Part shown: in pieces, positions 33,965-51,194 of the stretch
Layout of the letters: each line of letters opens with the position of its first letter
Position numbering within the stretch: position 1 is the stretch's first letter
NCBI RefSeq assembly: GCF_009758415.1
Contig: NZ_WQRF01000004.1
Location: 62,001 to 126,000, forward strand
Source: Devosia marina
Lineage (GTDB): Bacteria > Pseudomonadota > Alphaproteobacteria > Rhizobiales > Devosiaceae
Reading direction: 5' to 3'
Length of the DNA stretch: 64,000 nucleotides
Translations under genes and position numbers: made by a program
Notes under the pieces: model-generated
Database searches by the model: none
What the model was told of the DNA's origin: nothing
What the model saw: only the letters and a program-made list of their open reading frames with translations

Positions 33965-35299
33965 CTACTGCTCGTGGAAGGCACGTGCCATGGAGTCAGT
34001 GACCGGCTTGATCAGGTAATCGAGGAAGGTCCGCTCGCGCGTCCGCACCAGCACTTCGGCCGGCATGCCCGGTGTGGGGGAGAAGCCGGGAATGCGTCCG
34101 ATCTGGTCAGGTGAAATGGTGATGCGCGCCAGATAGACGTCCCGCTGAGTGCCCTCGACACCGGCGATCGTATCGGCGGAAATGTATTGCACCTCGCCTT
34201 CGAGCACTGGCGTGGTGCGCTGATTGAGAGCCGTCAGCCGGATATTGGCTGCCTGCCCCTCTTTGACCTCGTCAATCTGCATGCGCGGAATCTGGACCTC
34301 GACAATTAGCGGGACGCCCGCCGGAAGGATCTCGAAAATCGGCAGGCCACTTTCCACCACGCCGCCGGTGGTATGGTAGTACATGCGGACGATGGTGCCC
34401 GCGACCGGGGAAGAAATCGTTGTCCGGTTGAGGACGTTCTGCGCCTGCAGGGTCTGTTCGCGCAGCGCTTCGAGCTCGGCTTCCACCGTCTGCATTTCAT
34501 CGAGCGCGGCCTGGCGCACAGCGTCACGCGCCTGGACCATCTCACCGGTGTATTTTTCGATCTGGGTTTGGGTTTCCTGAACTTCAGACTCGAGGCGGGA
34601 GATATCGCCCTCCGCATCGAGAATGGCGCGCTCCGCAACGCGCACGCGGGACTGGGCGACCACGCCCTTGTCAAACAGCTCACGCATGGCCGCGCGATCC
34701 TCGCGCAACAGGGCCAATTGGCTTTGCATGGATTCGATCTGAGCCTGGCGGCCCGAAATGCGGAAGCGCAATGCGGCCAGGTTCTGCTCGATCAACTGCA
34801 ACTCGTTGCTGAGCTTTTCACGCCCCGCCTTGAAATTGGTGCGCTGGCTTTCAACCACCGCAGCAATGTCGGGATTGCCCATATGGTCCTTCACTGAATC
34901 TGGGGGCACATACTCATCCAGTTCCAGGGCTTCGGCATTGAGCCGGGCGCGAATGGCCTCAAGTCGAATGACACGCAATTGCAATTGCTTGGTTGTCGCG
35001 TTTGCCGACGTCTCGTCGAGCAACAGCAAGCTTTGCCCGGCGATCACCTTGTCGCCTTCGCGCACCAGCAGGTCCTTGATGATGCCGCCTTCGAGGTGCT
35101 GGACGATCTTGTTTTCGCCGGTCGCCACAAAACTGCCTTGGGCGATGACAGCAGCCGAGAGCGGCGCGGTCGCCGACCACGTCCCAAAGCCCCCGAAGGC
35201 CAGAGCCACCAGCAGCGCCCCTATCCAGACGGGTGTGCGGATGGAGCGAGGTACACCACTATACCATTCCAGGTTCTGCAATTCGCCAACGGCCGACAT
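33965..35299 (-). CDS. Type I secretion membrane fusion protein (HlyD family)
   Basis: 444 residues. A short cytoplasmic N-terminus and one membrane anchor (about residues 22-45) precede a split lipoyl domain (SFVATGENKIVQHLEGGIIKDLLVREGDKV), a long coiled-coil hairpin (about 100-290) and the C-terminal beta-barrel of HlyD/PrtE-type adaptors. It links the ABC exporter to an outer-membrane channel. It follows the ABC gene with a 3-bp gap. No TolC-like gene is in the window. Confidence 0.93.
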   Translation of the reverse strand: MSAVGELQNLEWYSGVPRSIRTPVWIGALLVALAFGGFGTWSATAPLSAAVIAQGSFVATGENKIVQHLEGGIIKDLLVREGDKVIAGQSLLLLDETSANATTKQLQLRVIRLEAIRARLNAEALELDEYVPPDSVKDHMGNPDIAAVVESQRTNFKAGREKLSNELQLIEQNLAALRFRISGRQAQIESMQSQLALLREDRAAMRELFDKGVVAQSRVRVAERAILDAEGDISRLESEVQETQTQIEKYTGEMVQARDAVRQAALDEMQTVEAELEALREQTLQAQNVLNRTTISSPVAGTIVRMYYHTTGGVVESGLPIFEILPAGVPLIVEVQIPRMQIDEVKEGQAANIRLTALNQRTTPVLEGEVQYISADTIAGVEGTQRDVYLARITISPDQIGRIPGFSPTPGMPAEVLVRTRERTFLDYLIKPVTDSMARAFHEQ

Positions 35300-35302
35300 G
35301 GT

Positions 35303-37714
35303 CTAGTTCTCCCCCCGGGGCCTGGTCGCGTTGATGGCCGTGGGATTGTTCCCCGATTTCCCGGTCAAAGCCGCCATGACCTCGGACCGCGTGCCGAACA
35401 TGGAGACCGAGCCGTTGTTGAGCACCAAAATCTTGTCCACCACGTTGAGAAGGGCCGGACGCTGCGTGATGGTCACGACGGTAATCTTCTGCTTGCGGGC
35501 ATGTTCGAGCGCCTTGGCGAGCGCCGCCTCGCCCTGCGAGTCCAGATTGGAGTTCGGTTCGTCCAGGACCACCAGCTTGGGATTGCCGAAGAAAGCACGC
35601 GCCAGGGCGATGCGCTGCTTCTGGCCACCCGACAATGGCGCGCCATCCGCCGCGACAAATGTCTCGTAACCTTGCGAAAGACCTGCAATCAACTCATGTA
35701 CATCAGCCAGGACAGCGGCATCGAAGATATCCCTGTCGCTGACATCTTCACGCATGCGGGCGATATTGGCCTTGATGGTGCCGGGGAAAAGCTGCACGTC
35801 CTGCGGCAAATAACCGATATTCTCGCCGAACTGGCGCTGGTCCCAGTTGCGCAGATCCATCAGGTCGAGCCGCACAGAGCCTGAAGTCGGCAGGATGGAG
35901 CCCACCAGCATCTTGCCCAGCGTCGTCTTGCCGGATCCCGAATTGCCGATCACGGCCAGGGATTCTCCGGGCATGAGGGAAAACGTTATGCCGTTGAGCA
36001 GAACCTTCTTGTTGGGTGGCGGCACGAATAGCAAGCGCTCAACATCGAGCCGCCCTTTGGGCTCGGGCAGCAGCAGGCGCTCAAAATTGAACGGACTGGA
36101 ATGGAGCAGGCCTTTGATGCGGCCGAAGGACGCGCGGAACTGAGAAAAGCCGTTCCAACCTTCAATGGTGCCTTCAATGGGGGTGAGGGCGCGCGCGGCA
36201 ATGATGGAGCCGGCAATGACCATGCCACCGGTAATTTCGCCCTGGATGGCCAAAAAGGCACCCCAGCCGAGCATGGCCACCTGGGTGAGCAAACGCACCC
36301 CCTTGGAAATACTCGACATGATGATGTTGCGATCCTGGGCGCGCACCTGGGCCCGCAGCGACGCGGCCGTGTCGCGGCCCCAGATGCGCACGACTTCGGG
36401 AATCATCGCCAGCGCGTTGATGATCTGGGAATTGCGCGACATGGAATCGAGGTGCAGGGCGGCTCGGCTCAGCAGATTGTTGGCATCGGTAAAAGGTTGC
36501 GCGGTCATGCGCTGGTTGATCATGGCGATGATCAGCAGGCAGATCGAGGCACCCACCACAATCAGTCCAAGCTGAGGATGGATCAGAAACACCGCCAGCA
36601 CGAAGAGCGGCGCCATCGGCGCATCAAGGAAGGACAGCAGGGTTCCTGAAACGATGAAGCTGCGCAATTGCTGGAGATCGCCCAGGACCTGATAGTCGCG
36701 TCCATTGCTGTGCAGAGAGGCGCGCGCCGCAGCGCTGAGAATGGGAGACCCCAATTGCACTGCGATCTCGACGGCAGTGCGCATGAGGATAAAGCGGCGG
36801 ACGGCGTCAAGAATGGCTTGCAACACCACGGCGCCGACCACCGCGGCGGTCAGCATGACCAGCGTGTCCGTCGAGCGGCTGGTCAGCACGCGATCCGAGA
36901 TCTGGAACAGGTAGATCGGGATCGCCAGCACCAGAATATTGATGAAGACCGTAAACCCCATGACGATGCCCAGATTGGTCCGCACCGCAGCCATGCCGTT
37001 GGCCAGACTCTGGGTGAAATTGGGCTGGGCGGCGCGTTTATGAAAGCCCGCGCCGCCGCCGCCCCTGCCCCCTCCATTGCCCGAGCCGTTCGAGCCCTTG
37101 CCACCGCCATCGCCAGAGGAGGTCTTGCTGGTCGATTTGAGTGGCCCGCGGTCACCCTCCACGATGGGTGGAATGCGGGTTTCAGGCTTGTCTGGTTCCG
37201 GGGTTCGGAAGTCGCGTTGTGGCCATTCCGCGCGGGCTTCGTCTGCCTGTGCGGGTTGAGGTTCATCCGTTTTCGGCGGCGGCGCGGATTCTTCAAGGTT
37301 GGGCGCAGTTTGCCGCGCTTGCGGGGCGGGCTTGCTGGCAGGCTCCGCCTGTTCCTCAGCCTGCGCTGCCGCCTGTGCGGGCGCCGGCGTCACATTGTCG
37401 TCCTGGGCTGGACGATCCGTGTTCTCGGTGGGCGCGGTCTGGCTCTCGGAAGGCCGTGGACGCAAGACTGACCGCGGCGGCGGGGCGCCATTGGAGCCCT
37501 TGGCGGAGGGCGATTCCACCGCGCGTTGTGCCTTGTTGTCCGCACCGGTCTGGGAGGGCGATGCATAGCCCCGAGCCAGCTCGTCCAACTCGGCAGCCGC
37601 CAGGTGGATATCGTCCATGATCTGATCCATCCGATCGGACCGGGCCCGGTTGGCGTGGCGCAATTGACGGCCCAGCGCCTGTTGGTCGGTGCGGCTCAGG
37701 TGCTCAAATGTCAT
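35303..37714 (-). CDS. Type I secretion ABC exporter (permease/ATPase) with long disordered N-terminus
   Basis: 803 residues, about 220 longer than usual PrtD-type exporters. Residues 1-50 are helical and charged, 50-195 rich in Pro, Ala, Glu and Gln, and 195-222 a Gly/Ser/Asn run; the membrane domain starts near 240. ABC motifs follow: Walker A GNSGSGKTT (Lys at about 596), signature LSGGQKQR and Walker B KLVVLDEP. The exporter probably secretes the two downstream-facing unusual proteins encoded directly upstream on the same strand. The N-terminal extension replaces the peptidase or C39-like domain seen in other exporters and could recruit cargo; this is inference. Confidence 0.92.
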   Translation of the reverse strand: MTFEHLSRTDQQALGRQLRHANRARSDRMDQIMDDIHLAAAELDELARGYASPSQTGADNKAQRAVESPSAKGSNGAPPPRSVLRPRPSESQTAPTENTDRPAQDDNVTPAPAQAAAQAEEQAEPASKPAPQARQTAPNLEESAPPPKTDEPQPAQADEARAEWPQRDFRTPEPDKPETRIPPIVEGDRGPLKSTSKTSSGDGGGKGSNGSGNGGGRGGGGAGFHKRAAQPNFTQSLANGMAAVRTNLGIVMGFTVFINILVLAIPIYLFQISDRVLTSRSTDTLVMLTAAVVGAVVLQAILDAVRRFILMRTAVEIAVQLGSPILSAAARASLHSNGRDYQVLGDLQQLRSFIVSGTLLSFLDAPMAPLFVLAVFLIHPQLGLIVVGASICLLIIAMINQRMTAQPFTDANNLLSRAALHLDSMSRNSQIINALAMIPEVVRIWGRDTAASLRAQVRAQDRNIIMSSISKGVRLLTQVAMLGWGAFLAIQGEITGGMVIAGSIIAARALTPIEGTIEGWNGFSQFRASFGRIKGLLHSSPFNFERLLLPEPKGRLDVERLLFVPPPNKKVLLNGITFSLMPGESLAVIGNSGSGKTTLGKMLVGSILPTSGSVRLDLMDLRNWDQRQFGENIGYLPQDVQLFPGTIKANIARMREDVSDRDIFDAAVLADVHELIAGLSQGYETFVAADGAPLSGGQKQRIALARAFFGNPKLVVLDEPNSNLDSQGEAALAKALEHARKQKITVVTITQRPALLNVVDKILVLNNGSVSMFGTRSEVMAALTGKSGNNPTAINATRPRGEN

Positions 37715-37735
37715 GTGCTCTATCCGGAAACTGAA

Positions 37736-39742
37736 TTACGCGAGAACGGATTGCATGAGGTCGACCGGGGCCGCGTCATGAGTCGTGTCGCCAAGGGCGG
37801 AATAGTCGGGGTTGTCGGCGAGCGTTTCGGTGTGATCGAGGAAGGCAACGACTTCGCTCACCAGAGCGTTGTCATCCTCCCCGTCGCCCTGAGCTTCGAG
37901 GATATTGGCCTGGATCAGGATGGAGTCGGAGTAGTGGTTGCCGCCCACTTCGATGCTGTCACCAAAGGTGTCGAAGTCTTTTATGGCAGCTATATTGACC
38001 AGGGCATTGGAGCCGGTATCGATGTTCCACTCGGTGACGGGCTGCCCATCGAGGAAGGCCTTTTTCTGCAAGGCGACAAAGTCGCTGTCTCCGAGAATAT
38101 TGGTTTGCTCGATATAGCGCAGATCATAGAGGCTACCCGAAATGTAGAGCACGCGCGGAATCGCGATGCCCTCAAAATCCTCGGCAGAATAGAAGCTGGC
38201 CGGCATGGATTTATTGCCACCGGCAAGGCCGTCCATCGCGTCCTTGTAGTGATCGGAAATCCCGGACTTTACCTCGGTGGCTCCGACATTGTGGATGACG
38301 GCCTGGTTCCAGAGCAGGTTGCCGCTGGTGTTGAGCTCTCCGGACGCAGGATAGTCCCCATCCTCACCAGCACCGAGCATGGTGACAGTGTCATTGTCGT
38401 AGAGGATATTGTTCTGCACGATGACATTGGCATCAAACACATTGCCACCGACCAGAATGAGATCGAACAGCAATCCGATATTGGCGAAGTTCACCCCGTT
38501 GAAACCAATGTTCTCGCCACTGGTGACAACGGCATCGCTGCCTGAGGCAGTAAGCACGCCCATATCCGCGTCGGACATGAAGGTGAGCTGCTTCATCCAT
38601 TCGAGGAAGATGACGTCGCCCGAAACGCAGGTGACCTGCCAGGTCTGCGGCATGACACCCGGATTGGCCTCGGCATTGTCGCCGGCGGTATCGAACGTTT
38701 CCTGCACGAAGCTGGCGACATTGACCGCGTTGGTTCCCCCGCCTGCCTTGGCGGACAGCGGCAGGTCATCGTTAACATAGTCGATATCACTGAAGGCGTT
38801 TGTCTGGATGATGGCATCGAGTTGGTGGAAATTCCCGCCGACGACGAAGTGCGTCCCGACCAGGCCGCCATTGAGTACGGTGGCTTCGTTGAGCAAGAAG
38901 TTGCCGCCACTGTTATAGGTAACGGAGCCTTGCGAGTTGTCGCTCTCGATCTGGATGTGCGCCTCGTGCTCGCCCGTGACTTCGATGGAGTGGGACTCGG
39001 GCGCATCCTCGATCTCATCCTGCAGATGCTTTGGCAGCGCATCGGCCAGTTCGGGTACTTCCTCTTCGATCTTGCCGTTGACATAGGTCCCGGTCAAAGA
39101 CTCGACTTGTTCGAACTGGGTGCCAGGATTGGATTGGTGGGCTTTGGCGGTCGCGCCCACCACGTCCATGACCAAGGGCACATCGTCATAGCGCGAAATG
39201 CCTGGGCCGTTGCCGATGGGGCCGAGCACATCATTGCTTGCGGCCTGCAGGCCAAGCAGTCCGGTGTCGGCGCCTGAGCGGAAAGTCAGTGGCTCGTCCA
39301 GTGTGCCCATGATGAAAACATCATCATCGGAAAGGTGAATGGTCTGGGAGATCACCGCGATGACCGAGCCAGGCTCGATGCCGATTAGCGGGATCACAAG
39401 GTCCCCCGGACCCGCAGGCCATTGCGACAGCGGCGAGTCCAGTTCGGACGCAGTGAAATCGGGGGTATTGGCGAGCCCGATATTGGTCGGGCCAAACATG
39501 ACCTCGCCGCGGATCAGGAACTCGGGAGGGGCATAGAACACGCCGGGAACGTAATTGCCCAGGGCATACACCTGGAGCATATCGACGGCAACCTGCTGCA
39601 TTTCCGGAGCTTCGGGCGCGGCTTCTGCCTCATGCTCGGCCAGGGCCATTTCCAGCCGGACCTTCATGTCCTCGGCAGCGATCTGGAAGTAGCCGAGAAA
39701 GTGGGCAACAATTTCTGAAAATGGATCACTTGGAAAAAACAC
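37736..39742 (-). CDS. Large repeat protein of a type I secretion locus, probable secreted cargo or adhesin
   Basis: 668 residues, acidic, no Sec signal peptide. A helical N-terminus (FFPSDPFSEIVAHFLGYFQ...) is followed by beta-rich sequence with a recurring motif of the form GGN-(5-8)-I-x-Q-x-N-(2-4)-D-x-D, seen at VGGNFHQLDAIIQTNAFSD, VGGNVFDANVIVQNNILYD, SGSLYDLRYIEQTNILGD and VGGNHYSDSILIQANILEA. It lacks classical RTX GGxGxD nonapeptides. The C-terminus (DLMQSVLA) ends in hydrophobic residues like many type I signals. The start is GTG 39742 with AGGAGGT upstream. It lies 21 bp before the exporter gene. Function unknown. Confidence 0.82.
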   Translation of the reverse strand: MFFPSDPFSEIVAHFLGYFQIAAEDMKVRLEMALAEHEAEAAPEAPEMQQVAVDMLQVYALGNYVPGVFYAPPEFLIRGEVMFGPTNIGLANTPDFTASELDSPLSQWPAGPGDLVIPLIGIEPGSVIAVISQTIHLSDDDVFIMGTLDEPLTFRSGADTGLLGLQAASNDVLGPIGNGPGISRYDDVPLVMDVVGATAKAHQSNPGTQFEQVESLTGTYVNGKIEEEVPELADALPKHLQDEIEDAPESHSIEVTGEHEAHIQIESDNSQGSVTYNSGGNFLLNEATVLNGGLVGTHFVVGGNFHQLDAIIQTNAFSDIDYVNDDLPLSAKAGGGTNAVNVASFVQETFDTAGDNAEANPGVMPQTWQVTCVSGDVIFLEWMKQLTFMSDADMGVLTASGSDAVVTSGENIGFNGVNFANIGLLFDLILVGGNVFDANVIVQNNILYDNDTVTMLGAGEDGDYPASGELNTSGNLLWNQAVIHNVGATEVKSGISDHYKDAMDGLAGGNKSMPASFYSAEDFEGIAIPRVLYISGSLYDLRYIEQTNILGDSDFVALQKKAFLDGQPVTEWNIDTGSNALVNIAAIKDFDTFGDSIEVGGNHYSDSILIQANILEAQGDGEDDNALVSEVVAFLDHTETLADNPDYSALGDTTHDAAPVDLMQSVLA

Positions 39743-39854
39743 GGGACACCTCCTACTCGCCAATTCGTTTCCCGGCGGACTGGCGGAAGTAAGATGATCT
39801 GCGCGGTGGGGGCGCTACCGCGCAGATCCTTGGCAAGCGTTGGGGGCGCTCGCT

Positions 39855-41192
39855 TTATGCGTCGTCGTTGCCGGCGTCGTTGTACATGTGGTTGTTGCCA
39901 CCCACCACGGTTGCATCGACAGCGTTCTGCTGCAGATTGGCACCGAGCACGACTTCCATGTTGAAGGCGCTGCCGTACACATATGCGCTGGCGTCCGCAC
40001 CGGCGCTGGTCGAGGCATCGTCACCGCCGCTTGAACTCTGGGCGTTGCCAGAAGCGTCAGCGTGAGCGCCGAATGCCTGGGCGTTGAACGAGCCGTTGGC
40101 ATTGTTCTGAACGTTGCTCAAGGTGTCGTTGTCGACGATGTCGGCCACCTGGCTGATTGCAAAGCCAGTGTCACCTCCGCCACCCGAGAAGGCGCCATTG
40201 AAGACGTTCTCGAAGTTAACGTCATCGCCCGGATCGAATTCGAGCGAGCCGCTATTGATGAACAGATTGTCCAACGTGGCGGTGCCGATATCGAGATCGG
40301 CGAAGTCATCATCGGAATTGTGCGAACCATCATCATCCGAGCTGTTGAAGGCGTCGGCGATGGCGACGTCGATGTCGGCATCGAGGTGAGTGGACGCATC
40401 ATTGTTGGAATTGTTCGTTGAATTATTCGAATTGTCGTTATTCGAATCATTCATGGACTTGTTATTTCCAACGTCCGTGTTGTTTCCCACATCTGTGTTA
40501 TTTCCGACGTCTTGATTGCTCGTCGAATTATCGTTGTGGGAATTGTTGGTCGACTTGTTGTTGGCAACGTCATCAACATCGACGTCCAGGTTCAGGTCGT
40601 TGTCCTGGGAGTTGTCGTTGTTGGAGTCGTTCATCGAGTTGTTATTTTGCGAGTCGGCCATAGCAAAATGCGACGACTGATCGCGGTTGTCGTTGTTGGA
40701 ATCCTTGGTCGAGCTGTCATTGTTAGAGTTGTTCGTCGACTTGTTGTTCGCAACATCATCAACATCAACAGCCAGATCGTTGTCCTGAGAGTTGTCGTTG
40801 TTCGAGTTGTTCATCGACTTGTTGTTTCCGACATCCTGATTGTCGGTCGAGTTGTCGTTATTGGAATTGTTTGTCGACTTGTTGTTCGCAACATCGTCAA
40901 TGTCAGCATCGAGATGGATTGAATTGTCGTCGTTCGAGCTGTTGTCATCATTCGAACTATTGTCGTCGTTCGAGCTGTTGTCATTGTTCGAATTATTTGT
41001 CGACTTGTTGTTCCCGTTGTCCTGCAACGTGGCATTCAAGTCATTGTCTTGGGAATTGTCATTGTTGGAGTTATTTTGTGACTTGTTATTCCCATTGTCC
41101 TGGATGGTGGCGTTCAGATCGTTGTCCTGAGAATTGTCATTCTGTTGGGAGTTGTCGGTGAACGCGCCGTTGTTTTGGAAGTTGTCAGCCAT
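39855..41192 (-). CDS. Asn/Asp-rich repeat protein, probable type I secreted matrix protein
   Basis: 445 residues with two parts. Residues 1 to about 290 are a low-complexity array of roughly eleven units, each beginning NDNS and ending in NNKS(T/M/Q)NNSN, with inserts such as QDNDLNATLQDNG or LDADIDDVA; over a third of the residues are Asn, and no Cys or Trp was seen. The C-terminal part is a Gly/Ala/Ser/Asp-rich segment ending VVLGANLQQNAVDATVVGGNNHMY, which echoes the GGN...QxN motif of the next gene. ATG 41192 has GAGGAG upstream. No Sec signal is present, so export by the adjacent type I system is likely. Amyloid, Ca-binding or matrix roles are possibilities, not evidence. Confidence 0.85.
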   Translation of the reverse strand: MADNFQNNGAFTDNSQQNDNSQDNDLNATIQDNGNNKSQNNSNNDNSQDNDLNATLQDNGNNKSTNNSNNDNSSNDDNSSNDDNSSNDDNSIHLDADIDDVANNKSTNNSNNDNSTDNQDVGNNKSMNNSNNDNSQDNDLAVDVDDVANNKSTNNSNNDSSTKDSNNDNRDQSSHFAMADSQNNNSMNDSNNDNSQDNDLNLDVDVDDVANNKSTNNSHNDNSTSNQDVGNNTDVGNNTDVGNNKSMNDSNNDNSNNSTNNSNNDASTHLDADIDVAIADAFNSSDDDGSHNSDDDFADLDIGTATLDNLFINSGSLEFDPGDDVNFENVFNGAFSGGGGDTGFAISQVADIVDNDTLSNVQNNANGSFNAQAFGAHADASGNAQSSSGGDDASTSAGADASAYVYGSAFNMEVVLGANLQQNAVDATVVGGNNHMYNDAGNDDA

Positions 41193-41737: not shown

Positions 41738-42592
41738 TTGCGTGAAAACCTCTATGACGGCCTGCGTAGACCGCGTCAGACCGAAGATCGGTCAACAAAA
41801 TCCGACACACTTCGGCTCGTGTTTGTTGCACCACAACAAGCCATATACCAATGCCTTAGCAGTGCATTACAGGATCATTTTCGCGATACGGAAGTTTTTC
41901 TAGTCGACCGGATCGACGACAAAGGCGAGCCAGATCATGATGTCGGGCTGGTGCTGCTTGGCGCTGGTGCCCGCCTGATCGGTTTAGATGTCGTCGAGCA
42001 ATGCAGGCGGCGCTTCCCCGATGCGGCCATTGCGATCGCCATCGATAATGGGCTGCCAGTCGTGGACCCGCAATTGACGGAACGGCGGCTTATCCAGGGC
42101 ATTCTGCCCACAACCCTGCCGCTCGATGTGTGGTTTGCGCTGATGCGGCTGGTCATGGCGGGCGGAGAATATCTGCCGCAGGACGAGGGTGCGAGATACA
42201 ATCATCTCGAGCCTGTCCATCGGAGCTCGCCGGGCGCGCTGCCGCTAGCGTCGGCGAATCCGGCTCCGGTCAACCGGCAAAGACCGGCAGTCGAGATTCC
42301 GGTGCAGCAGAGCCAGCAGGCCAACGGCGACGCGGAAAACGGGCTGGACACATTGACAGCGCGGGAGCGGGAGATTCTCTCCCTGGTTTCGGAGGGGTAC
42401 CAGAACAAGCTGATTGCCGATCGGATGGCCTTGTCGGAGCATACTGTCAAAGCCCATGTGCACAATCTGATCGCCAAGCTTCGGGTGACCAACCGGACCC
42501 AGGCGGCCGCCTATCTGCACGAGCACAGGCTCGACAAGAACGCCCTCAGCTCTGGACATGGTGACCACCGCCGGGCCACCGCCCTGGGGTGA
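41738..42592 (+). CDS. LuxR/NarL-type regulator with degenerate receiver domain
   Basis: 284 residues. The N-terminal 150 residues have the length and alternation of a response-regulator receiver, but the phosphoacceptor strand reads VGLVLLGAGARL with no Asp, and the acidic pocket (FVAPQQ) is also lost, so phosphorylation is unlikely. A Pro/Gln linker leads to a canonical LuxR helix-turn-helix: LTAREREILSLVSEGYQNKLIADRMALSEHTVKAHVHNLIAKL. The start is TTG 41738, preceded by GGTGAGGGAG. It probably controls the divergent secretion genes or the downstream operon. The stop overlaps the next start by GTGA. Confidence 0.85.
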   Translation: MRENLYDGLRRPRQTEDRSTKSDTLRLVFVAPQQAIYQCLSSALQDHFRDTEVFLVDRIDDKGEPDHDVGLVLLGAGARLIGLDVVEQCRRRFPDAAIAIAIDNGLPVVDPQLTERRLIQGILPTTLPLDVWFALMRLVMAGGEYLPQDEGARYNHLEPVHRSSPGALPLASANPAPVNRQRPAVEIPVQQSQQANGDAENGLDTLTAREREILSLVSEGYQNKLIADRMALSEHTVKAHVHNLIAKLRVTNRTQAAAYLHEHRLDKNALSSGHGDHRRATALG

Positions 42593-43080
42593 ACGCCATG
42601 CCCAGCCTGGATAAGGTGCTCCAGCAGGTCGGCCAGCTGAACTATGTGTGGACCAATACGGAAAGCCTGTTCATCTATCTGATCGCCCATCTGGCCGGAA
42701 CGTCCAAGGACGCTGCGGTCATCATTTTCCTGACGCTGAATACCACGCGGGCGCGGCTGGACCTGCTCGACAGGCTGGCCAAGCTACCGGCAACCCCACC
42801 AGAGACCAGGGCGGCGGTGCTGGATCTGACCGAGCGCCTCAAGAAAGAGGCCAAAGTCAGGAACAAATATAATCATTGCATCTACTCATTCGACTCCAAT
42901 GGCGAATTGAGCGGCACGCAATTGATGCGCATTGTCGAGTTTGACGATGCACTGAAATACGGAAAGGCCGAAGCACTGGACGATACTGAGTTTGAAAGGG
43001 TTCAGGCCGCCATCCGAGCCATCACATCGGTCAATCGGGATTTGTGGGCGTTCTTTGCTGCCAGCGGCATCAAGCCGTGA
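42589..43080 (+). CDS. Hypothetical protein, mostly helical, unknown function
   Basis: 163 residues starting at GTG 42589, which overlaps the LuxR stop by four bases (ATG 42598 is the alternative). It is predicted to be largely helical, with a possible membrane-associated stretch (ESLFIYLIAHLAGTSKDAAVIIFLTLN), an Arg/Leu-rich middle and KYNHCIYSFDSNGELSG. No family was recognised. Tight coupling to the regulator gene implies a joint role, perhaps as modulator. Confidence 0.65.
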   Translation: MNAMPSLDKVLQQVGQLNYVWTNTESLFIYLIAHLAGTSKDAAVIIFLTLNTTRARLDLLDRLAKLPATPPETRAAVLDLTERLKKEAKVRNKYNHCIYSFDSNGELSGTQLMRIVEFDDALKYGKAEALDDTEFERVQAAIRAITSVNRDLWAFFAASGIKP

Positions 43081-43225
43081 GTTAGCCAACGACCTGCAAG
43101 GATTGCGCTTGGTGATGAGATCCGGACAGGATCAAAGTAAATTATACGTTGTAATACATAGTTGGGGTAAGATCGGCAGTCCGCGTACGGAGCATGACTG
43201 CGCAAAAAAGGGTTGGAGGGCGCAG

Positions 43226-43975
43226 ATGAGTACTCAAGCGCCGCATCACACGACTGTAAGGCTGCTTGGTCCGTGTTGTCTGCTCGTAGGCAACAATCTG
43301 GCCCAGGGTGTCCCTGCGAGTTTTTTCCGGATCGCGGCGTATTTGATCCTCTCCCCGCCTGAACAGGTTCAAGCACGCGGTAGGCTGGCCGCCCTGTTCT
43401 GGCCGAATGCAGATGACGGCAAGGCCGCCGCCAATCTGCGTCAGGCGGTGGCCCGCATCCGGCATGTTCAGGAGGAAAACGGCTTTACCTTGATTCAAGC
43501 CAACAACTCGACGCTGCACCTGGCCCCTAGCGATGACGTGTATTGCGACCTGATCGAGCTGTCCCGGCACATCGAGGGTGACGTTGTGCTGAACCCGCTC
43601 CAACTTTCACGCATCTACGGTGGGGAGTTGCTCGCCAACCAGGATTCCGGCGGTCAGGAATTTGAAGACTGGCTGTCCTCAAAACGCAATGAACTGCTGC
43701 TGCATGCTGTCGACGGGATCGCCTTGGGGATGCGCCCGGGCACGCGCTTCAGCCAGGCCGAGCGCAGCATTTGTGCGCGCCGACTGCTCGAACTCGATCC
43801 CTATCGGGAAGATGCGGTTTGCGTCCTAATGGAAGAGGCGGCCGAGCGCCGGCATTATGCCCGTGTCAAAGAGCTCTACACCTCCATGCGCAGCGTGTTG
43901 TCCAATGAACTGGGCGTTGAACCGAGCCCGGAGACGCGGGCCCTTTACACCAATTTGATGGAAATGGTGCGCTGA
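43226..43975 (+). CDS. SARP/BTAD-like transcriptional regulator
   Basis: 249 residues. The N-terminal part (VRLLGPCCLLVGNNLAQGVPASFFRIAAYLILSP...RGRLAALFWPNADDGKAAANLRQAVARIR) has the winged-helix pattern of OmpR/SARP-type DNA-binding domains. The C-terminal part is a bacterial transcriptional activator domain (ERSICARRLLELDPYREDAVCVLMEEAAERRHYARVKELYTSMRSVLSNELGVEPSPETR). The start is ATG 43226 with GGAGGG upstream. SARP-like proteins regulate secondary metabolism in actinobacteria and are also found in alphaproteobacterial surface loci. It ends 16 bp from the convergent xylanase gene. Confidence 0.83.
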   Translation: MSTQAPHHTTVRLLGPCCLLVGNNLAQGVPASFFRIAAYLILSPPEQVQARGRLAALFWPNADDGKAAANLRQAVARIRHVQEENGFTLIQANNSTLHLAPSDDVYCDLIELSRHIEGDVVLNPLQLSRIYGGELLANQDSGGQEFEDWLSSKRNELLLHAVDGIALGMRPGTRFSQAERSICARRLLELDPYREDAVCVLMEEAAERRHYARVKELYTSMRSVLSNELGVEPSPETRALYTNLMEMVR

Positions 43976-43991: not shown

Positions 43992-45122
43992 TTATGCAAA
44001 GGCGGTCAGGATGGCGCTGTGCATGGGCTTGGCCTGCCATTCGCGATCATAGGGCAGGCCGCGATTGGACGCGCTGCGCTGGGTGCGCAACCAGGAATGG
44101 CTATCGCTCAACCCCCAGGTACTGACACCCAGAACATTGTTGAACTGCAAGACAATGTCGAGATAGCGACGGGTTTCGTCGGCCACCAGCGCGTCGCGCC
44201 GTTCGATGGAAAGGCCAGTATTGGCCTCAGCGACATCGAGCTCGGTGATCGCCACCTTGAGCCCCATGCCACGAATATCGCGCATCATGCCATAAATGCC
44301 ATCGGCATAGACATTGCCCTTGCGCAGATCCAGATGGGCCTGCAGGCCGACCGTGTCGACCGGTGCGCCGCGTGAGCGCAGACGCTCGAGCAGGCGGAGC
44401 AGCGAGAGGCGGCGCTGGCCTTCATAGCCGCTATTATATTCGAGCCCGTATTCATTGATGACCATGCGCGCGCGCGGCGCACGGGCCTTGGCCGCTTCCA
44501 GGGCACGTTCGATATAGGCCTCCCCAAAGGCCTTGTAGAACTGGTTCTGTCGCAAGCCATTTCCGCCATGATTGGGTTCGATCGGTTCGTTGACCACGTC
44601 CCATTCGCGCACCTGATTGCCATAGCGGCCAATGATCTTGGAAAAGTGATCATCGATCACCGCCCAGTCGCGGTTGGACGCAAGAGCCGAAGCGGCCCAG
44701 CGGGGCAGGCTCTTGTGCCAGAGCAGTGTATGCCCGCGCATGGCCAGGCCATTGCGGGAGGCAAAGCTGGCGAGCTGGTCCATCTCGCCATAATTGTAAT
44801 TCCGGCTGGGTGCGATGGAGTCCCATTTCATGGCCCATTCCGGCGTGATGATGGAGCAGTCGCGCACCACACTGGAACGGAACCGGCTGTCGCTCAGGGT
44901 CGCGCTCTGAATGGCGGCACCGAAATAAAGGCCGCGCGAGGAAGCGGCCGAACGCAGTGCGCGCACCGGCGGCGGCGTCGCCGGGCGAGGCTGGCGGGCC
45001 TGCGCCTGGTCCGGCGTCGCGGTGACCGATCCGGTCTGGGTGGTGTCGACACGGGCGCAGCCAATCAACTGCCCTACAGACAGCGCAGCGGCTGCCCCAA
45101 TAATTAAATCTCGACGCTTCAC
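43992..45122 (-). CDS. Endo-beta-1,4-xylanase-like GH10 lipoprotein
   Basis: 376 residues. The N-terminus MKRRDLIIGAAAALSVGQLIGC combines a twin-arginine-like start with a lipobox (Cys22), so it is probably a lipoprotein. A Pro/Ala linker leads to a GH10 barrel with HTLLWHKSLPRW, the acid/base Glu in WDVVNEP (E179) and the nucleophile in ITELDV (E294), both intact. The start is GTG 45122 with GGAGGC upstream; a longer frame exists but would add an implausible leader. GH10 enzymes cleave beta-1,4-xylan internally. The next genes make UDP-xylose, so this may trim a self-made glycan as BcsZ does for cellulose. Confidence 0.9.
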   Translation of the reverse strand: MKRRDLIIGAAAALSVGQLIGCARVDTTQTGSVTATPDQAQARQPRPATPPPVRALRSAASSRGLYFGAAIQSATLSDSRFRSSVVRDCSIITPEWAMKWDSIAPSRNYNYGEMDQLASFASRNGLAMRGHTLLWHKSLPRWAASALASNRDWAVIDDHFSKIIGRYGNQVREWDVVNEPIEPNHGGNGLRQNQFYKAFGEAYIERALEAAKARAPRARMVINEYGLEYNSGYEGQRRLSLLRLLERLRSRGAPVDTVGLQAHLDLRKGNVYADGIYGMMRDIRGMGLKVAITELDVAEANTGLSIERRDALVADETRRYLDIVLQFNNVLGVSTWGLSDSHSWLRTQRSASNRGLPYDREWQAKPMHSAILTAFA

Positions 45123-45336
45123 TGCTGCCTCCCCGAATCGTCCACCGACCAACCCTGCCAATAGAAAAATGAAGCAAGGACCGGAGCGCGGCAATTAGAC
45201 AGAACTATCTAGATCGTTGTATTAATGGCACCATTTTAAATCAATAGCTAGACTATCCCCTAACAGAGTCATTCGGTGCGGGAGACGTTCTGCATACAGC
45301 TTTGTGGTACGGCAACTTTGTTAGTGGTGAGTCAAG

Positions 45337-45975
45337 ATGTGCAAGATATCACAAGTAGTAAATGCGAAAGTTTTGGGCATCTCTACCGCCCTGACATTGA
45401 TAGCGGCATTGCCCGCCATGGCCGATTCGCTGGTCATTATTTCTATCGCCGGGGAGGCCTATGATGGCCCGCCAAGCTTTGATCTTTTGATTGATGACAA
45501 CGTGGTGGGCAGCGGCACGCTGCGCATGGCGATCAAGACCGAGGCCGACGGGCGCCTGTTCACGAAACCGCGCCCCAGCTCGTTTCTGGAACAATTTTCC
45601 TTCACGGTCCCGGATGACCTGCTGACACCGGATGCTGAAATCAGCCTGGTGCTGACCAATGACAAGTTCACCCGCATGGATGGCGCCGGTGAGGATGGGG
45701 TGCTCGACCGCAACCTGTTTATCGACTTCGTGCGAGTCAACGACATCGAGGTAACCTCGGCTGATATGGTACTGATTTATGACGGCGATGTCGTAGAATA
45801 TAGCTATCAGGCGGGATTGCTGCCGATCTATGAAGCCGGGTTTCGCGCGGTGGCGCGTCCGCCAGAGGGTGGCTGGCTGACCGGTGCCGTTGCCAAGGTC
45901 GGCATGCTCGATATTCCCATGCCCTTGCCGCGACCGAAGGATCTGACGCTCAGCGCCGGCCTGGTGCAACAATGA
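45337..45975 (+). CDS. Exported CBM60-like xylan-binding domain protein
   Basis: 212 residues. A signal peptide ends at about residue 30 (ALPAMADS). The following 110 residues match the pattern of the Ca-dependent xylan-binding domain (CBM60/CBM35-like, PF16841): [39 protein letters not shown] and a [13 protein letters not shown] segment. The C-terminal 70 residues are not recognised. It is divergent from the GH10 gene across 214 bp and overlaps the next gene by ATGA, so it belongs to the UDP-xylose operon. It may hold or guide the nascent polysaccharide in the periplasm. Confidence 0.78.
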
Positions 45976-47054
45976 GCCCGCAGCATAAAGCGACAAGGCT
46001 GGTGCGTCAGACGCGCACCGGCCGTCGGACAGACATGCCCAAATCCATCTGCGTGACAGGTGGAGCGGGGTTCCTCGGCTCGCATCTGTGTGCCCGCCTG
46101 ATTGGCGAGGGGCACCGGGTGACCTGCATCGACAATTTTCACACGGGCCGTCCGGCCAATGTCGCGGCCCTGGCACGCAGCAACCGGTTCGAGCTGGTGG
46201 AACATGACGTCATGGACGCCCTGCCTGAGCACTTGCCCGCCTTTGACGAAATCTACAATCTCGCCTGCCCGGCTTCGCCGGTGCATTATCAGAGCGATCC
46301 GGTCCGCACCGCGCTGATCTGTGCGGAAGGCGCCGCCAATGTGCTCTACCGCGCCCAGCGGGACGGTGCCCGGGTCATGCAGGCCTCGACCTCGGAAATC
46401 TATGGCGACCCCGAGATTCACCCGCAGCGCGAGGACTATTGCGGCAATGTCAACACGGTAGGACCTCGCTCCTGCTATGACGAAGGCAAGCGCTTTGCCG
46501 AGACGCTGTTCACCGATTTCGCCCGCCAGAGCGGCGTGGTGGTCAAGATCGTGCGCATCTTCAATACCTATGGCCCGCGAATGCAGCCCGATGACGGCCG
46601 GGTGGTCTCCAACTTCATTCTGCAGGCTTTGCGCGGCGAGGACATCACGATCTATGGCGAGGGCCAACAAACCCGCTCGTTCTGCTATGTCGATGATCTG
46701 ATCGAGGGTTTTGTGCGCCTGATGGCGTCCGGGCCGGAGGTCGATGGTCCGGTCAATATCGGCAATCCCACCGAAATCACCGTGGGCGAGTTGGCACAAA
46801 TCATCATCGAGATGACAGGCGCGTCCTCAAAAATCGTCCACCGCCCCCTGCCGGTTGACGATCCGCGCCGCCGGCGCCCCGACATCACCCGCGCCAGCAC
46901 GCTGCTTGGCTGGGCGCCACGCGTGCCCCTGGCCGAAGGGCTGGACAAAACCATCCGCTACTTTGCCAGCCTCAACCAGACGCTGGCGCCGGCCCAGCGC
47001 CATGAGCCGGTCTTCGCCGCGGCGGCCCGGAGCGAGCCCATCGTACGATTCTAG
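45972..47054 (+). CDS. UDP-glucuronate decarboxylase (UDP-xylose synthase)
   Basis: 360 residues; extended SDR fold. [11 protein letters not shown] binds NAD, the [12 protein letters not shown] stretch and YGDPEIHPQ are characteristic of UXS enzymes, and the catalytic Tyr/Lys lie at Y169/K173 (YDEGK). It decarboxylates UDP-glucuronate to UDP-xylose. The ATG at 45972 overlaps the previous stop; ATG 46035 is an alternative start that begins at the Rossmann fold. The next gene supplies its substrate. Confidence 0.9.
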
Positions 47055-47080
47055 TTTGCGTAGCAGAGCGAGTAAGAACC

Positions 47081-48505
47081 ATGCGCCTCATGATTATCGG
47101 TTCGGGATATGTCGGTCTTGTTTCGGGCGCATGCCTGGCGGAACTTGGACACCACGTGATGTGCGTGGACAATGATACAAGCAAGGTCGAGCGGCTGCAG
47201 GCTGGCCAGATTCCCATCTACGAGCCGCAACTCTCCGAGATGATCACCCGAAATGTAGCGCGGGGGCGCTTGGGTTTTAGCAGCCAGCTGCCGAGACTGG
47301 GCAAGGAAATACACGCGGTGATGATCGCGGTGGGCACGCCGCCCCAGACCAATGGCAGCGCCAATCTCGATGCCATCTTCGCTGTGGCCAAGGAAATTGC
47401 CGCCAAGGCGATCCATCCGCAAATGGTAATCATCAAGTCCACGGTGCCGGTCGGCACCGGCGACAGCGTGCAGGCGCTGATGCACAAGGCACGACCCGAA
47501 ATGCATTTCTCGGTGATCTCCAATCCCGAGTTCCTGCGCGAAGGCTCGGCCATTGATGACTTCATGGCACCGGACAGGATCGTTGTGGGCGCCGGGGACG
47601 AAACGGCCCGCAATACGCTGCGAGCGCTGTATGCGCCGCTGGAGCAGACCGGAACACAAGTGGTCTGCATGGGCCGGCGGGAGGCGGAATTGGTCAAATG
47701 CGCTGCCAATGCGTTCCTGGCCACCAAGATCGCATTTATCAATGAAATGGCGGACCTATGCGAAGCGGTTGGCGCCGATGTCGAGCAGGTCGCCCATGGC
47801 GTCGGGCTGGACGAGCGCATCGGCGAAGCTTTTCTGCAGGCCGGCCCCGGCTATGGCGGGTCGTGCTTCCCCAAGGACACGACCGCGCTACAGGCGATTG
47901 CCCAGGAATATGGCATCAATCTGCGGCTAGTCGAAACCGTCATCGCATCCAATGACGCCCGCAAGCGCGGCATGGGTCGCCGCGTCTCGAGAGCGCTGCC
48001 GGGCGGTTTGTCGGGGCGGGTCGTGGCGGTGTTGGGCCTGACGTTCAAACCCAATACCGACGACATGCGCGATTCCCCGTCCCTGGCCCTGATCGACGCC
48101 GTGCAGCGGGCCGGTGCGAAGGTGCAAGTGTTTGATCCACAAGGGATGAATCGGGCCCGGTTGCATCTGCATGATGTCCACTTCGCGGACAATGCCTATC
48201 TCTGTGCCGAAGGGGCGGATTGCATTGTGCTGGCGACGCATTGGCCCGAATTTGCCACGCTCGACGCCGAGCGGCTGGGGCGGGGGGTCCGCAACAAGGT
48301 CTTGGTGGACCTGCGCAATTTCCTTGATCCACAAGCCTTTCTCAATGCCGGTTTTGCGGTCCACGCCATAGGGCGGCCGCCGCAGCATCCCCGGCGGCAC
48401 AACGTGCTCGCGGTGCACCAGGACAGTGCCCGGAACCACTCCAGGAGGGGCTACATGAACGGGGCAACGCAGCGTTCCGCCCTGCAAGATGGGATGAGCG
48501 GCTAG
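47081..48505 (+). CDS. ugd: UDP-glucose 6-dehydrogenase
   Basis: 474 residues with the GSGYVGLVSGACLAELGH NAD motif, AVGTPP, FLREGSA and the catalytic Cys in GYGGSCFPKD (about C262), then the C-terminal UDP-binding domain (GLTFKPNTDDMRDSP). It oxidises UDP-glucose to UDP-glucuronate, the substrate of the decarboxylase encoded just upstream. About 45 residues at the C-terminus, rich in His/Arg, extend beyond the usual fold. Confidence 0.93.
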   Translation: MRLMIIGSGYVGLVSGACLAELGHHVMCVDNDTSKVERLQAGQIPIYEPQLSEMITRNVARGRLGFSSQLPRLGKEIHAVMIAVGTPPQTNGSANLDAIFAVAKEIAAKAIHPQMVIIKSTVPVGTGDSVQALMHKARPEMHFSVISNPEFLREGSAIDDFMAPDRIVVGAGDETARNTLRALYAPLEQTGTQVVCMGRREAELVKCAANAFLATKIAFINEMADLCEAVGADVEQVAHGVGLDERIGEAFLQAGPGYGGSCFPKDTTALQAIAQEYGINLRLVETVIASNDARKRGMGRRVSRALPGGLSGRVVAVLGLTFKPNTDDMRDSPSLALIDAVQRAGAKVQVFDPQGMNRARLHLHDVHFADNAYLCAEGADCIVLATHWPEFATLDAERLGRGVRNKVLVDLRNFLDPQAFLNAGFAVHAIGRPPQHPRRHNVLAVHQDSARNHSRRGYMNGATQRSALQDGMSG

Positions 48506-48530
48506 ACGCAGTGTCGCGAGAGGTCAGGCC

Positions 48531-50027
48531 ATGGAAACCAACGAGACAATGAGCCTATTGCTTGTCGGTGCCTTCTGCGCGGTCCAGATCGCCTACGCCC
48601 TCTCGCAATCGCTCGATCTCTATTTCTTCACCCGCCCGGTCAACTGGGTGGATCCCAATACGGCGCGCGACAAGCCAGCGGACGAATACCCTTACATCGT
48701 TCTGTTCTATCCGGTGCTGCGCGAACTTGAATCCACCATGCGCACGACCTTTCTGAGCCTGGCCCAGCTCGAATATCCCAAGGACAAGTTCAGCGTCGTG
48801 GCCATTCCCAATGCGGACGACGCCTTCACCGTGCGCTCGCTGCGTCGGCTGCAGAAGGAGTTTCCGTTCCTCCAGATCATTGAGGTGCCGGCCACGTCAC
48901 ACAAATCGTGGCTGGTGGTGTGGAAGGCCTGGGACCGCTGCAAGAAGGCCTATTGGTGGCATGAGGGCAAGTTCGCGCAGAACCGCAATCTGCCCCCGAA
49001 AAAAACCAGGCAATTGATCTATGCCTTCTATCAGATTGCCGAACGCGTCATGGACACCCAGGACTTCCTGGTCAATTACATCGACGCGGACAGTTGTCCG
49101 CCCAGCGACCATTTCCTGGCTGCGGCCGCCGGCATGGGGCAATATGATGTGCTGCAGGCCCAGAATATTGCCGGCAATCTCAATGCGAGCTGGGCGGCAA
49201 GTTGGCACGCCTTTGACCACATGGCCTGGGACGGTTCGAAATATCCGCATCTCTCGGCCAATGGAAAGCACCCTTATTGGGTGCTGGGCAAAGGGCTGTT
49301 TTTCCGCGCCTCGGACCTGATCGCGCTGGGCGGCTTCCACCCCTGGCTGACGATCGAGGATCCGGAGGTGGGCATGCGCTTCTGGACCAATGGCAAGCGG
49401 CTGGGGGTGATCGAGAACCCCTTGATTGAGGAAGTACCGCTGACTTTCGCGCATGGTATTACCCAGCGCAAACGCTGGGTGGCAGGATTCTTCCAGAGCC
49501 TGACCCACCCGCTCAAGGCCATGGGCATGCCCTGGCCGGCCCGTTTCAAGGCCTGGCTGAACTTTCTGCCATGCCTGTCGCTCTCGCTGAACTCCATCGG
49601 CCTTCCACTGGGAATCTGGGCCACCTGGTCGGCCTGGACTGGCCAGAACATCTTGCCTGATTGGGCCATCGTACTGTCCCTGGCCAATCTGGTGGTCTTC
49701 ACTCTGTCGATGAGCGCGCTTTATGTGCGGACCTGGCGCCGCGCGGCGCTGGTGCTGCCCGCGCGCAAGGACCGCATCCGCTATCTGTTGCGAGTCAATC
49801 CGGTCTTTATCCTGGCGTGGTGGCTGGTCTGGCTCATCCCGCTCTGGATCGGTTTCCGCATGTTTCTGCGCAATGAGGGGCTGGTGTGGGAACGCACCGA
49901 AAAGACCGATGCCAATCACGATCTGGTCCGCGTCGCCCGGACCAAGAAGTCGAGCGCAACGGCACGCTCCACTGCCCAATCCAAATTGCCCACCGCCATT
50001 CGAGCGGGGGCGGAAAAAACCTCATGA
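48531..50027 (+). CDS. Membrane glycosyltransferase family 2, processive synthase-like
   Basis: 498 residues. One N-terminal membrane segment (about 7-27), a cytoplasmic GT-A domain and three or more C-terminal spans (about 340-450). It keeps the processive-synthase signatures: DxD at D185/D187 (YIDADS), the acceptor/base motif IEDPE at 276-277 and QxxRW as QRKRW (312-316). This is the arrangement of cellulose- and mannan-synthase-like enzymes. Next to UDP-xylose genes and a GH10 protein, it is a candidate polymerase for a xylose-containing chain; a PilZ domain is absent. Confidence 0.88.
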   Translation: METNETMSLLLVGAFCAVQIAYALSQSLDLYFFTRPVNWVDPNTARDKPADEYPYIVLFYPVLRELESTMRTTFLSLAQLEYPKDKFSVVAIPNADDAFTVRSLRRLQKEFPFLQIIEVPATSHKSWLVVWKAWDRCKKAYWWHEGKFAQNRNLPPKKTRQLIYAFYQIAERVMDTQDFLVNYIDADSCPPSDHFLAAAAGMGQYDVLQAQNIAGNLNASWAASWHAFDHMAWDGSKYPHLSANGKHPYWVLGKGLFFRASDLIALGGFHPWLTIEDPEVGMRFWTNGKRLGVIENPLIEEVPLTFAHGITQRKRWVAGFFQSLTHPLKAMGMPWPARFKAWLNFLPCLSLSLNSIGLPLGIWATWSAWTGQNILPDWAIVLSLANLVVFTLSMSALYVRTWRRAALVLPARKDRIRYLLRVNPVFILAWWLVWLIPLWIGFRMFLRNEGLVWERTEKTDANHDLVRVARTKKSSATARSTAQSKLPTAIRAGAEKTS

Positions 50028-50054
50028 GACGCGACGCGCGTAAGGAGTAACACA

Positions 50055-51194
50055 ATGACGAAAGGACACGTTCTGGTCACTGGGGGTGCCGGCTTTATCG
50101 GCTCGCATCTGGTGGACTTGTTACTGGCCCGCGGGTTTGAGGTCACCGTTCTCGATTGCCTGCTGGAACAGGTGCATGGCGATGCCGACCGCGATGCCGA
50201 AGGCTGGCCGGTCTATCTCAATCCCGCCGCCCGCCGCATCAAGGGCAATATTCTCGATGACGGCGTGTTCGAGAGCGCCCTGTCCGGCATTACCCATCTG
50301 GCCCATCTCGCCGCCTCTGTCGGGGTCGGGCAGAGCATGACCAATATTGTCGATTATACCCGCAACAACACCATGGCCGCGGCCATCATGCTCGAAGTGC
50401 TGTCGCGCACCGAGCACACGGTCAGGCGCATGGCGGTTGCCTCGTCCATGTCGATCTATGGCGAGGGCCAGTATGTCGAGGCGGAGAGCGGCCGCCCGGT
50501 CATGCCGGAAATGCGCGACCACGAACAACTACAGGCCCATCACTGGGAGCTGAACAAGAACGGCGCGAACCTGTCGCCCGTGCCCACCGATGAAAACAAG
50601 CTGCTCCAGCCCGCCTCGATCTATGCCGTCAACAAGCGTGATCATGAGGAGATGTTCCTCTCGGTCGGCCGGGCCCTCAAGATTCCCACCGTGGCGCTCA
50701 GGCTGTTCAATGCCTATGGCTCGCGCCAGGCGCTGAGCAATCCCTATACCGGGGTAGCGGCCATCTTCATCTCACGCCTGCTCAACGACCAGCCGCCCAT
50801 CATCTTCGAGGATGGCGAGCAGAAGCGCGATTTTGTGCATGTGCTCGACGTGGCCAATGCCTTTGCCACCGTGCTCGAAAGCGACCTGGCGGTGTGGGAA
50901 GCGTGCAATGTGGGCAGCGGGCAGGCGCGGACCGTCAACGAGATCGCGACCACACTGGCGCGGCTGTTGCGCAAGAATATCGCGCCCACCATTCTCAATC
51001 AGTACCGGGTGGGGGATATCCGCCATTGCTTCGCCGATATCAGCAAGCTCGAAAAGCTGTTCGGCATCCGGCCGACGCAGGAGTTTGAGACGGGAATGGC
51101 GCAGTTGATCGAATGGGTGCAGACGGTGAACCGCCCGCAAGACCGCTCCCAGCAATCGCTGGCGGAGCTGACCCGGAGCAGGCTGGTCGTCTGA
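50055..51194 (+). CDS. NAD-dependent sugar epimerase (dTDP-L-rhamnose 4-epimerase-like)
   Basis: 379 residues, extended SDR with VTGGAGFIGSHLVDLLLARG, an SSMSIYGEGQY segment and catalytic YAVNK. The start segment VLDCLLEQVHGD and the insertion before YAVNK resemble dTDP-L-rhamnose 4-epimerases (dTDP-6-deoxy-L-talose formation); a UDP-sugar 4-epimerase is also possible. It follows the glycosyltransferase by 27 bp and ends 5 bp from a convergent kinase, so it closes the polysaccharide operon. Confidence 0.8.
   Translation: MTKGHVLVTGGAGFIGSHLVDLLLARGFEVTVLDCLLEQVHGDADRDAEGWPVYLNPAARRIKGNILDDGVFESALSGITHLAHLAASVGVGQSMTNIVDYTRNNTMAAAIMLEVLSRTEHTVRRMAVASSMSIYGEGQYVEAESGRPVMPEMRDHEQLQAHHWELNKNGANLSPVPTDENKLLQPASIYAVNKRDHEEMFLSVGRALKIPTVALRLFNAYGSRQALSNPYTGVAAIFISRLLNDQPPIIFEDGEQKRDFVHVLDVANAFATVLESDLAVWEACNVGSGQARTVNEIATTLARLLRKNIAPTILNQYRVGDIRHCFADISKLEKLFGIRPTQEFETGMAQLIEWVQTVNRPQDRSQQSLAELTRSRLVV

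Follow-up and report, generated by a model that had tools for sequence, protein, structure and literature searches.

According to our analysis of a 64,000-nucleotide stretch of the Devosia marina genome (contig NZ_WQRF01000004.1, positions 62,001–126,000; hereafter, the window), a gene group coding for a family GH10 glycoside hydrolase, a CBM60-like exported protein, a UDP-xylose synthase (UXS), a UDP-glucose 6-dehydrogenase (UGD), a membrane glycosyltransferase of family GT2 and a sugar-nucleotide epimerase probably represents a synthase-dependent exopolysaccharide (EPS) system. Judging from the sequences, its product would be a matrix polymer of a pentose derived from UDP-xylose, and we assign this reading a probability of about 0.62. 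It is built on the finding that a separate clade of GH10 proteins with intact catalytic residues is tied to the gene of the putative synthase.

Linkage of GH10 to the putative synthase gene

A scan of the genome_contigs set with a profile of the GT2 yielded 53 named loci. The epimerase was present in 51 of them (in L041 and L055, the match is weaker or cut) and UXS in 43; of the ten genomes with a UXS-less locus, seven carry UXS elsewhere. A GH10 of the locus-specific clade described below was found in 31 loci, or in 34 when the divergent GH10 domains of L048, L049, and L055 are counted. Among the hosts of the clade GH10 are Devosia, Pelagibacterium, Aureimonas, Mesorhizobium, Reyranella, Brevundimonas, Phenylobacterium, Novosphingobium, Allosphingosinicella, and Eremiobacterota metagenome-assembled genomes (MAGs). 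The gene is placed upstream and divergently in Devosia, downstream and convergently in Aureimonas and Reyranella, and downstream in the same direction in Brevundimonas. Two copies occur in L011, L015, L018, L029, and L079; in the last of these, on a plasmid of Rhizobium sp. BG4, the operon is flanked by GH10 on either side. Divergent GH10-family domains adjoin the same GT2 in L048, L049, L055, and L172, the hosts being a Rhodospirillaceae genome, a Deltaproteobacteria MAG, a Dehalococcoidia MAG, and a genome from the order of the survey genome G136; in L048, the protein that bears it also contains a carboxypeptidase-regulatory-like domain. The 22 loci without a clade GH10 belong to Legionella, Actinobacteria, Chloroflexota, and others, and also include two Devosia MAGs (L010 and L012) and Aurantimonas L024. 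The Legionella loci L031, L035, and L039 hold GT2, epimerase, and UXS. Distances between GT2 proteins and between GH10 proteins were correlated (Spearman coefficient 0.32, 33 loci), and none of 1000 permutations gave a value as high.

In the survey samples, many of the GT2-bearing genomes are also among the 53 loci, so that the sets are not independent. Among the relatives, GT2 was found in 4/61 and GH10 (E < 1e-50) in 13/61, or 19/61 with six weak matches (≤24.1 bits) that were not taken as GH10; in all four GT2-positive cases, GH10 lay beside GT2. The order sample contained GT2 in 5/397 genomes and GH10 in 102/397, and the five GT2-bearing genomes, four of which represent one genus, all have GH10 approximately 3.5 kb from GT2. 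Since GH10 occurs in just 102 of the 397 order genomes, yet in 5/5 of the GT2-positive ones, the link appears to exceed chance. The class sample showed GT2 in 3/385 genomes (that of the window included) and GH10 in 27/385; of the other two GT2 genomes, one (G098) carries a divergent GH10 domain, and in the other (G136) no GH10 was seen within about 9 kb. Within the order of G136, seven of 76 genomes bear GT2: two with a clade GH10, one with a divergent GH10, and four with none (two of them cut soon after the epimerase). The conservation of the neighborhood, which the preliminary description of this DNA had left to be checked in relatives, is thus confirmed by a co-occurrence survey that links GH10, UXS, and GT2 across families and phyla.

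Phylogeny of the GH10 proteins

The GH10 tree comprised 80 rows: 42 from loci, nine from the relatives, and 29 from the class sample. L101, a duplicate of L014, was left out, and L048, L049, and L055 were included but counted apart. Thirty-eight of the 42 locus rows, among them the GH10 of the window and those of the Rhizobium plasmid, formed one clade (Shimodaira–Hasegawa-like approximate likelihood ratio test, SH-aLRT, 100), which held none of the 38 survey GH10s; the locus rows outside it were L048, L049, and two rows of L055. The approximately unbiased (AU) one-clade test rejected a 40-row set that included L049 and one L055 row (p = 4e-48), a result that applies to this larger set and does not cover the 38-row clade. 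A further check covered 24 GH10 sequences of the order sample, most of the GH10s from the 102 order genomes lying outside it, and only two of the 24, which are the two from GT2-bearing genomes, fitted the clade profile better. Among the sequence-checked survey GH10s, those of the clade thus come only from GT2-bearing genomes. The GH10 of L036, a Bordetella MAG, groups inside Brevundimonas on the tree, and its contig may be mis-binned.

The GH10 of the window and its active site

The GH10 of the locus is the sole one detected in the genome of the window, and its closest solved relative is Cex of C. fimi. Its start is probably a GTG near position 45122. The protein carries an RR (twin-arginine) motif and the lipobox LIGC, and because of these two features its earlier designation as a lipoprotein is plausible; the twin-arginine pattern was found in 32/38 clade GH10s. 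Glu203 and Glu318 align with the glutamates of the Cex motifs WDVVNE and ITELD, which we take to be the catalytic pair of GH10, and both are kept in all 38 clade proteins. The remaining tested residues, to which we ascribe roles in the -1 subsite, are almost unchanged across the clade.

The other proteins of the operon

The best solved match of the window UXS is UDP-glucuronate decarboxylase 1 (E = 4.4e-107), the next enzyme type following at 3e-40, so that by sequence the protein is nearer to UXS than to other dehydratases and epimerases of the short-chain dehydrogenase/reductase (SDR) superfamily. UGD, clearly assigned by its family profile (Table 1), also matches a TuaD-like family below the cut-off. 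The GT2, which is the only glycosyltransferase of the operon, has the motifs YIDAD (183–187), TIED (274–277), and QRKRW (312–316), which show little or no variation in an alignment of 20 relatives. It has one hydrophobic segment near the N-terminus and two or three near the C-terminus. Its nearest solved relative is BcsA, and the matching region, roughly 85 residues long, surrounds ED and QxxRW. The domain search of the window operon genes matched neither BcsB nor PilZ. The epimerase keeps the YxxxK motif, presumably with the role usual in its family. The CBM60-like protein scores 25.4 bits with PF16841, below the gathering cut-off of 28.2, but all eight members of its family match this profile at E ≤ 0.01 (best 7.4e-10). 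The CBM60 family is annotated as xylan-binding. Among the loci examined, the gene was found only in Devosia, Pelagibacterium, and one Hyphomicrobiales MAG.

Proposed pathway and nature of the product

In the pathway that we propose, strong homology suggests that UGD would convert UDP-glucose to UDP-glucuronate and that UXS would decarboxylate the latter to UDP-xylose. The epimerase would most simply form UDP-L-arabinose from UDP-xylose or else might provide a second donor. The motifs of the GT2 and its similarity to BcsA suggest that it polymerizes the chain and moves it across the inner membrane. BcsZ trims or releases the cellulose chain, and the exported GH10 may similarly cleave the growing polymer, either in the periplasm or at the outer membrane, while in Devosia the CBM60-like protein may bind it. 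The donor, the linkage, the processivity, the substrate of GH10, and the ligand of CBM60 are all predicted from sequence. Since the GT2 is the lone glycosyltransferase of the operon, it is simplest to assume that a single synthase makes a single polymer.

Several observations weigh against such a system. No GH10 was seen at 19 of the 53 GT2 loci, five of which (L010, L024, L032, L041, and L044) lie on short or cut contigs, and among the 14 GT2-bearing survey genomes pooled, eight had a clade GH10, two a divergent one, and four none that could be seen (two cut by a contig end). The distances of the GT2 correlate better with those of the epimerase (0.56) than with those of GH10. In Reyranella massiliensis (L014), GT2, epimerase, and GH10 are present, yet the best UXS candidate in the genome shows 37% identity, and two MAGs with GT2 loci (1.6 and 1.4 Mb) have no UXS in the genome at 1e-50. 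The CBM60-like gene occurs in only eight loci of a set of 55 that takes in the window and Rhizobium sp. BG4, and no outer-membrane export channel was found among the operon genes of the window. The preliminary description had proposed a pathway for a self-made xylan-like polysaccharide served by its own xylanase and xylan-binding protein. Of this proposal, two parts stand: the association of GH10, UXS, and GT2, and the layout, which is that of a synthase-dependent EPS system possessing a hydrolase of its own. CBM60 has no general part, and the proposal did not account for the epimerase, although it is almost universal.

One candidate for the polymer is an authentic D-xylan with beta-1,4 linkages, either bare or carrying side groups on its backbone; in that case, the GT2 would be a bacterial xylan synthase, GH10 and CBM60 would trim and bind the chain, and the epimerase would serve a minor or second sugar. 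The presence of UXS and UGD in the operon, the QxxRW motif of the GT2, the annotation of the CBM60 family, and the preserved catalytic and -1 residues of GH10, with the roles that we assume for them, are consistent with this. Nevertheless, a pure xylan would require no epimerase, the enzyme found at nearly every locus; the case of R. massiliensis also counts against xylan, and GH10 is replaced by a GH5 in Legionella L031 and by a beta-helix protein in Arthrobacter L045. The -2 subsite adds to these objections. The position of Cex Asn44, which presumably contacts the -2 xylose, is occupied by Trp in the GH10 of the window, and Asn was found there in 0/41 scored locus GH10s (divergent rows included), as compared to 15/28 scored class GH10s, 1/9 relatives, and 3/22 other GH10s of the order; Lys47 of the same subsite is replaced in 8/38 clade proteins. 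Given these losses of Asn and Lys, the locus GH10 may act on something other than plain xylan. Taken together, xylan is a possibility that we regard with some doubt. The loss of Asn was also considered as a hallmark of the locus, but this idea was weakened because Asn is also missing in 19/22 of the other GH10s from the order Hyphomicrobiales; the -2 subsite is unusual, yet not uniquely so.

The near universality of the epimerase suggests arabinose as readily as xylan. In an arabinose-containing polymer similar to the arabinose-containing polysaccharide (APS) of S. meliloti, UXS and a 4-epimerase would supply UDP-L-arabinose to the GT2, and GH10 would have been retuned. This agrees with the altered -2 subsite, with the epimerase as the most constant partner of the GT2, and with the logic of UXS, epimerase, and GT2 shared with the APS operon as described in section 18 of PMC7902896. 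On the other hand, the epimerase of the window is just 25% identical to the S. meliloti enzyme UXE and has an insertion, the GT2 and ApsS give no convincing alignment, and the APS operon has a GH26-like protein, no GH10 having been seen in the 20 kb that were examined. An arabinose polymer is nevertheless a serious candidate, even if we would give it less than an even chance.

Another explanation, raised by the preliminary description as the alternative, is that GH10 digests plant xylan and simply adjoins unrelated EPS genes. GH10 and CBM60 are classic modules of plant-xylan degradation, and the genome of the window has five GH43 hits (three above the cut-off), so that the use of xylo-oligosaccharides is possible, a further point against our main reading. 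However, these GH43s are located on contigs other than that of the locus and were present in 7/7 Devosia tested, whether or not the locus is there; GH67 was found in 0/8 genomes; and the genome G647 holds the whole locus with neither GH43 nor GH67. The linkage of a dedicated GH10 clade to the GT2 spans families and phyla, and the signal of the twin-arginine translocation/lipoprotein type fits retention at the cell. Plant-xylan digestion was rejected as the main role, because the GH10 clade is tied to GT2, GH43 is off-locus, and GH67 is missing; as an explanation of the locus, it is very improbable.

It is also conceivable, though rather unlikely, that the GT2 is non-processive, its product being a glycosylated lipid or protein or else a short glycan, and that GH10 acts on this glycan. 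The small size of the GT2, the lack of a PilZ match, and the shortness of the segment that aligns with BcsA would all suit this role, whereas the QxxRW motif and membrane segments of the GT2, together with the outer-membrane-type proteins and the endo-acting hydrolase family that neighbor other loci, argue for a polymer synthase.

Comparison with known systems

The nearest known system in logic is the APS operon of S. meliloti, which includes UXS, an epimerase, and a GT2 and is responsible for an EPS (PMC7902896, section 18). As in the window, UXS, a sugar-nucleotide epimerase, and a cellulose-synthase-type GT2 (PF13632) are combined in one operon, but the APS synthase, epimerase, and hydrolase belong to other subfamilies; the GH26-like gene (apsE by gene order) takes the place that GH10 has in the window, and a DUF995 protein is present that was not found among the six window genes. 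No orthologue of ApsS was detected by phmmer at E 1e-3, and the profile comparison gave a probability of 0.3%. Membership in the APS family proper was rejected on the basis of this absence and of the low identity to UXE.

The sfz stalk cluster of Mariprofundus, as presented in PMC8250860, combines the GT2 Sfz2, the BcsB-like Sfz1, and the GH10 Sfz4 and presumably produces an EPS. It resembles the window in having a GT2 with QxxRW plus a GH10, but Sfz2 has an EpsE-like N-terminal domain and a BcsB-like partner, unlike the GT2 of the window; the main text of that paper, as accessed, contains no match for UDP-xylose, epimerase, or dehydrogenase. With the Bcs systems, the locus shares a BcsA-like GT2 core and a dedicated exported endo-hydrolase, and BcsS occurs in the related locus L034. 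It differs in that neither BcsB nor PilZ was matched in the window operon, in possessing GH10 and not GH8, the family of BcsZ, and in the additional precursor genes for UXS and UGD. The Pga system for poly-N-acetylglucosamine (PNAG) is comparable to L049 and Legionella L031, in which a TPR protein resembling PgaA (below cut-offs) accompanies a GT2 and a hydrolase; its GT2 is different, and the window operon has no PgaA-like protein.

In the open-access literature, no published account of a bacterial xylan synthase or of this locus was recognized, and the passages retrieved from PMC9495663 and PMC7112194 contain no xylan. As far as these searches show, the locus is a real, conserved, and apparently undescribed variant of synthase-dependent EPS systems with a UDP-xylose supply and a dedicated GH10. 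The earlier suggestion that such a glycan would be new for bacteria needs qualification, since the APS operon and the GH10 of Mariprofundus are precedents.

If the proposed reading is true, some proteins annotated as endo-1,4-beta-xylanases are parts of systems for self-made pentose polysaccharides and do not indicate the use of plant biomass. It would also provide a defined gene set with which to look for matrix polymers of bacteria that resemble xylan or arabinoxylan, a candidate for a pentosan synthase encoded by a single gene, and, besides APS, a second UXS-fed synthase system. A bolder version can be offered only tentatively and seems to us unlikely rather than likely: bacteria would have a widespread, probably horizontally spread xylan-type matrix polysaccharide, the product of a GT2 xylan synthase that is not related to those of plants, and a private GH10 clade annotated as plant-degrading would remodel it.

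Gene organization and neighboring genes

All six genes named in the preliminary description were recovered from the open reading frames and domain searches of the window, and their side-by-side position was borne out (Table 1). The CBM60-like, UXS, UGD, GT2, and epimerase genes form a same-strand operon with gaps of approximately 25–60 bases when the UXS start at 46035 is used, and GH10 is divergent. The genome has a size of 3.86 Mb, and the closest named GT2 loci are those of Devosia subaequoris and D. indica (93%).

Table 1. Features of the locus and adjacent genes in the window.
Feature	Positions	Strand	Evidence or remark
GH10 endo-xylanase-family protein	43992..45194	-	PF00331, 257 bits; catalytic Glu pair; locus-specific clade; candidate hydrolase of the locus
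Divergent intergenic region between GH10 and operon, ~214 bp	45123..45336	.	Likely regulatory; start choice and role predicted
CBM60-like exported protein, operon gene 1	45337..45975	+	PF16841, 25.4 bits
UXS (UDP-glucuronate decarboxylase, UDP-xylose synthase)	45972..47054	+	Probable start 46035
UGD (UDP-glucose 6-dehydrogenase)	47081..48505	+	TIGR03026, 439 bits (cut-off 189.8)
Membrane GT2, candidate polysaccharide synthase	48531..50027	+	PF13632; alignment; nearest solved relative BcsA
Extended-SDR sugar-nucleotide epimerase-family protein with insertion	50055..51194	+	PF01370; alignment
LuxR-type regulator	41738..42592	+	Linked in Devosia-type loci
163-aa protein	42589..43080	+	Linked in Devosia-type loci
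BTAD/SARP-type regulator	42992..43975	+	Linked in Devosia-type loci
Type I secretion ABC and HlyD proteins, 675-aa repeat protein, Asn-rich 445-aa protein	33965..41192	-	

The neighbors of the related loci indicate a role in the biofilm matrix because BcsS, Fap-like genes, and the 675-aa protein with type I secretion system (T1SS) genes occur among them. A protein cluster is common to Brevundimonas, Phenylobacterium, and Eremiobacterota loci (11 loci, L036 included), and its one scanned member, from Brevundimonas L034, is BcsS, above the cut-off. FapF-like and FapD-like amyloid-export genes were found in the flanks of the GT2 locus L022, the one scanned, below the curated cut-offs; Fap-like clusters are common to four loci (L021, L022, L027, and L030). 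Homologues of the 675-aa repeat protein occur in 15 loci, that of the window included (Devosia, Aureimonas, Aurantimonas, Reyranella, and Pelagibacterium), several of them with T1SS genes. This protein has no Pfam or NCBIfam match, and the 445-aa protein, rich in Asn, Ser, and Asp, has no NCBIfam match; both are possible candidates for matrix or amyloid-like proteins. The PgaA-like TPR protein of L049 is accompanied by its GH10 domain, also below cut-offs, and the TPR protein of Legionella L031 is of the outer-membrane type.

The Devosia genomes without GT2 (L081–L083) carry a different GH10. In L081, the sole one scanned, it lies in an exopolysaccharide-type locus with Wzx/Wzy and with UbiA-HAD and FAD-binding genes, which in our view resemble those for decaprenyl-phospho-arabinose synthesis; the GH10s of GT2-less Devosia are thus not all genes of plant degradation. 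In another GT2-less Devosia genome (G011, L080), a GH10 (5470–6516) and a CBM60-like match of 51.6 bits (11608 onward) are about 5 kb apart. Downstream of the EPS locus, at 51200–58150 of the window, there are genes for a NagK-like kinase and, from reading of the sequences only, an epimerase, an ABC sugar importer, and a regulator; this region looks like one of amino-sugar catabolism outside the EPS locus.

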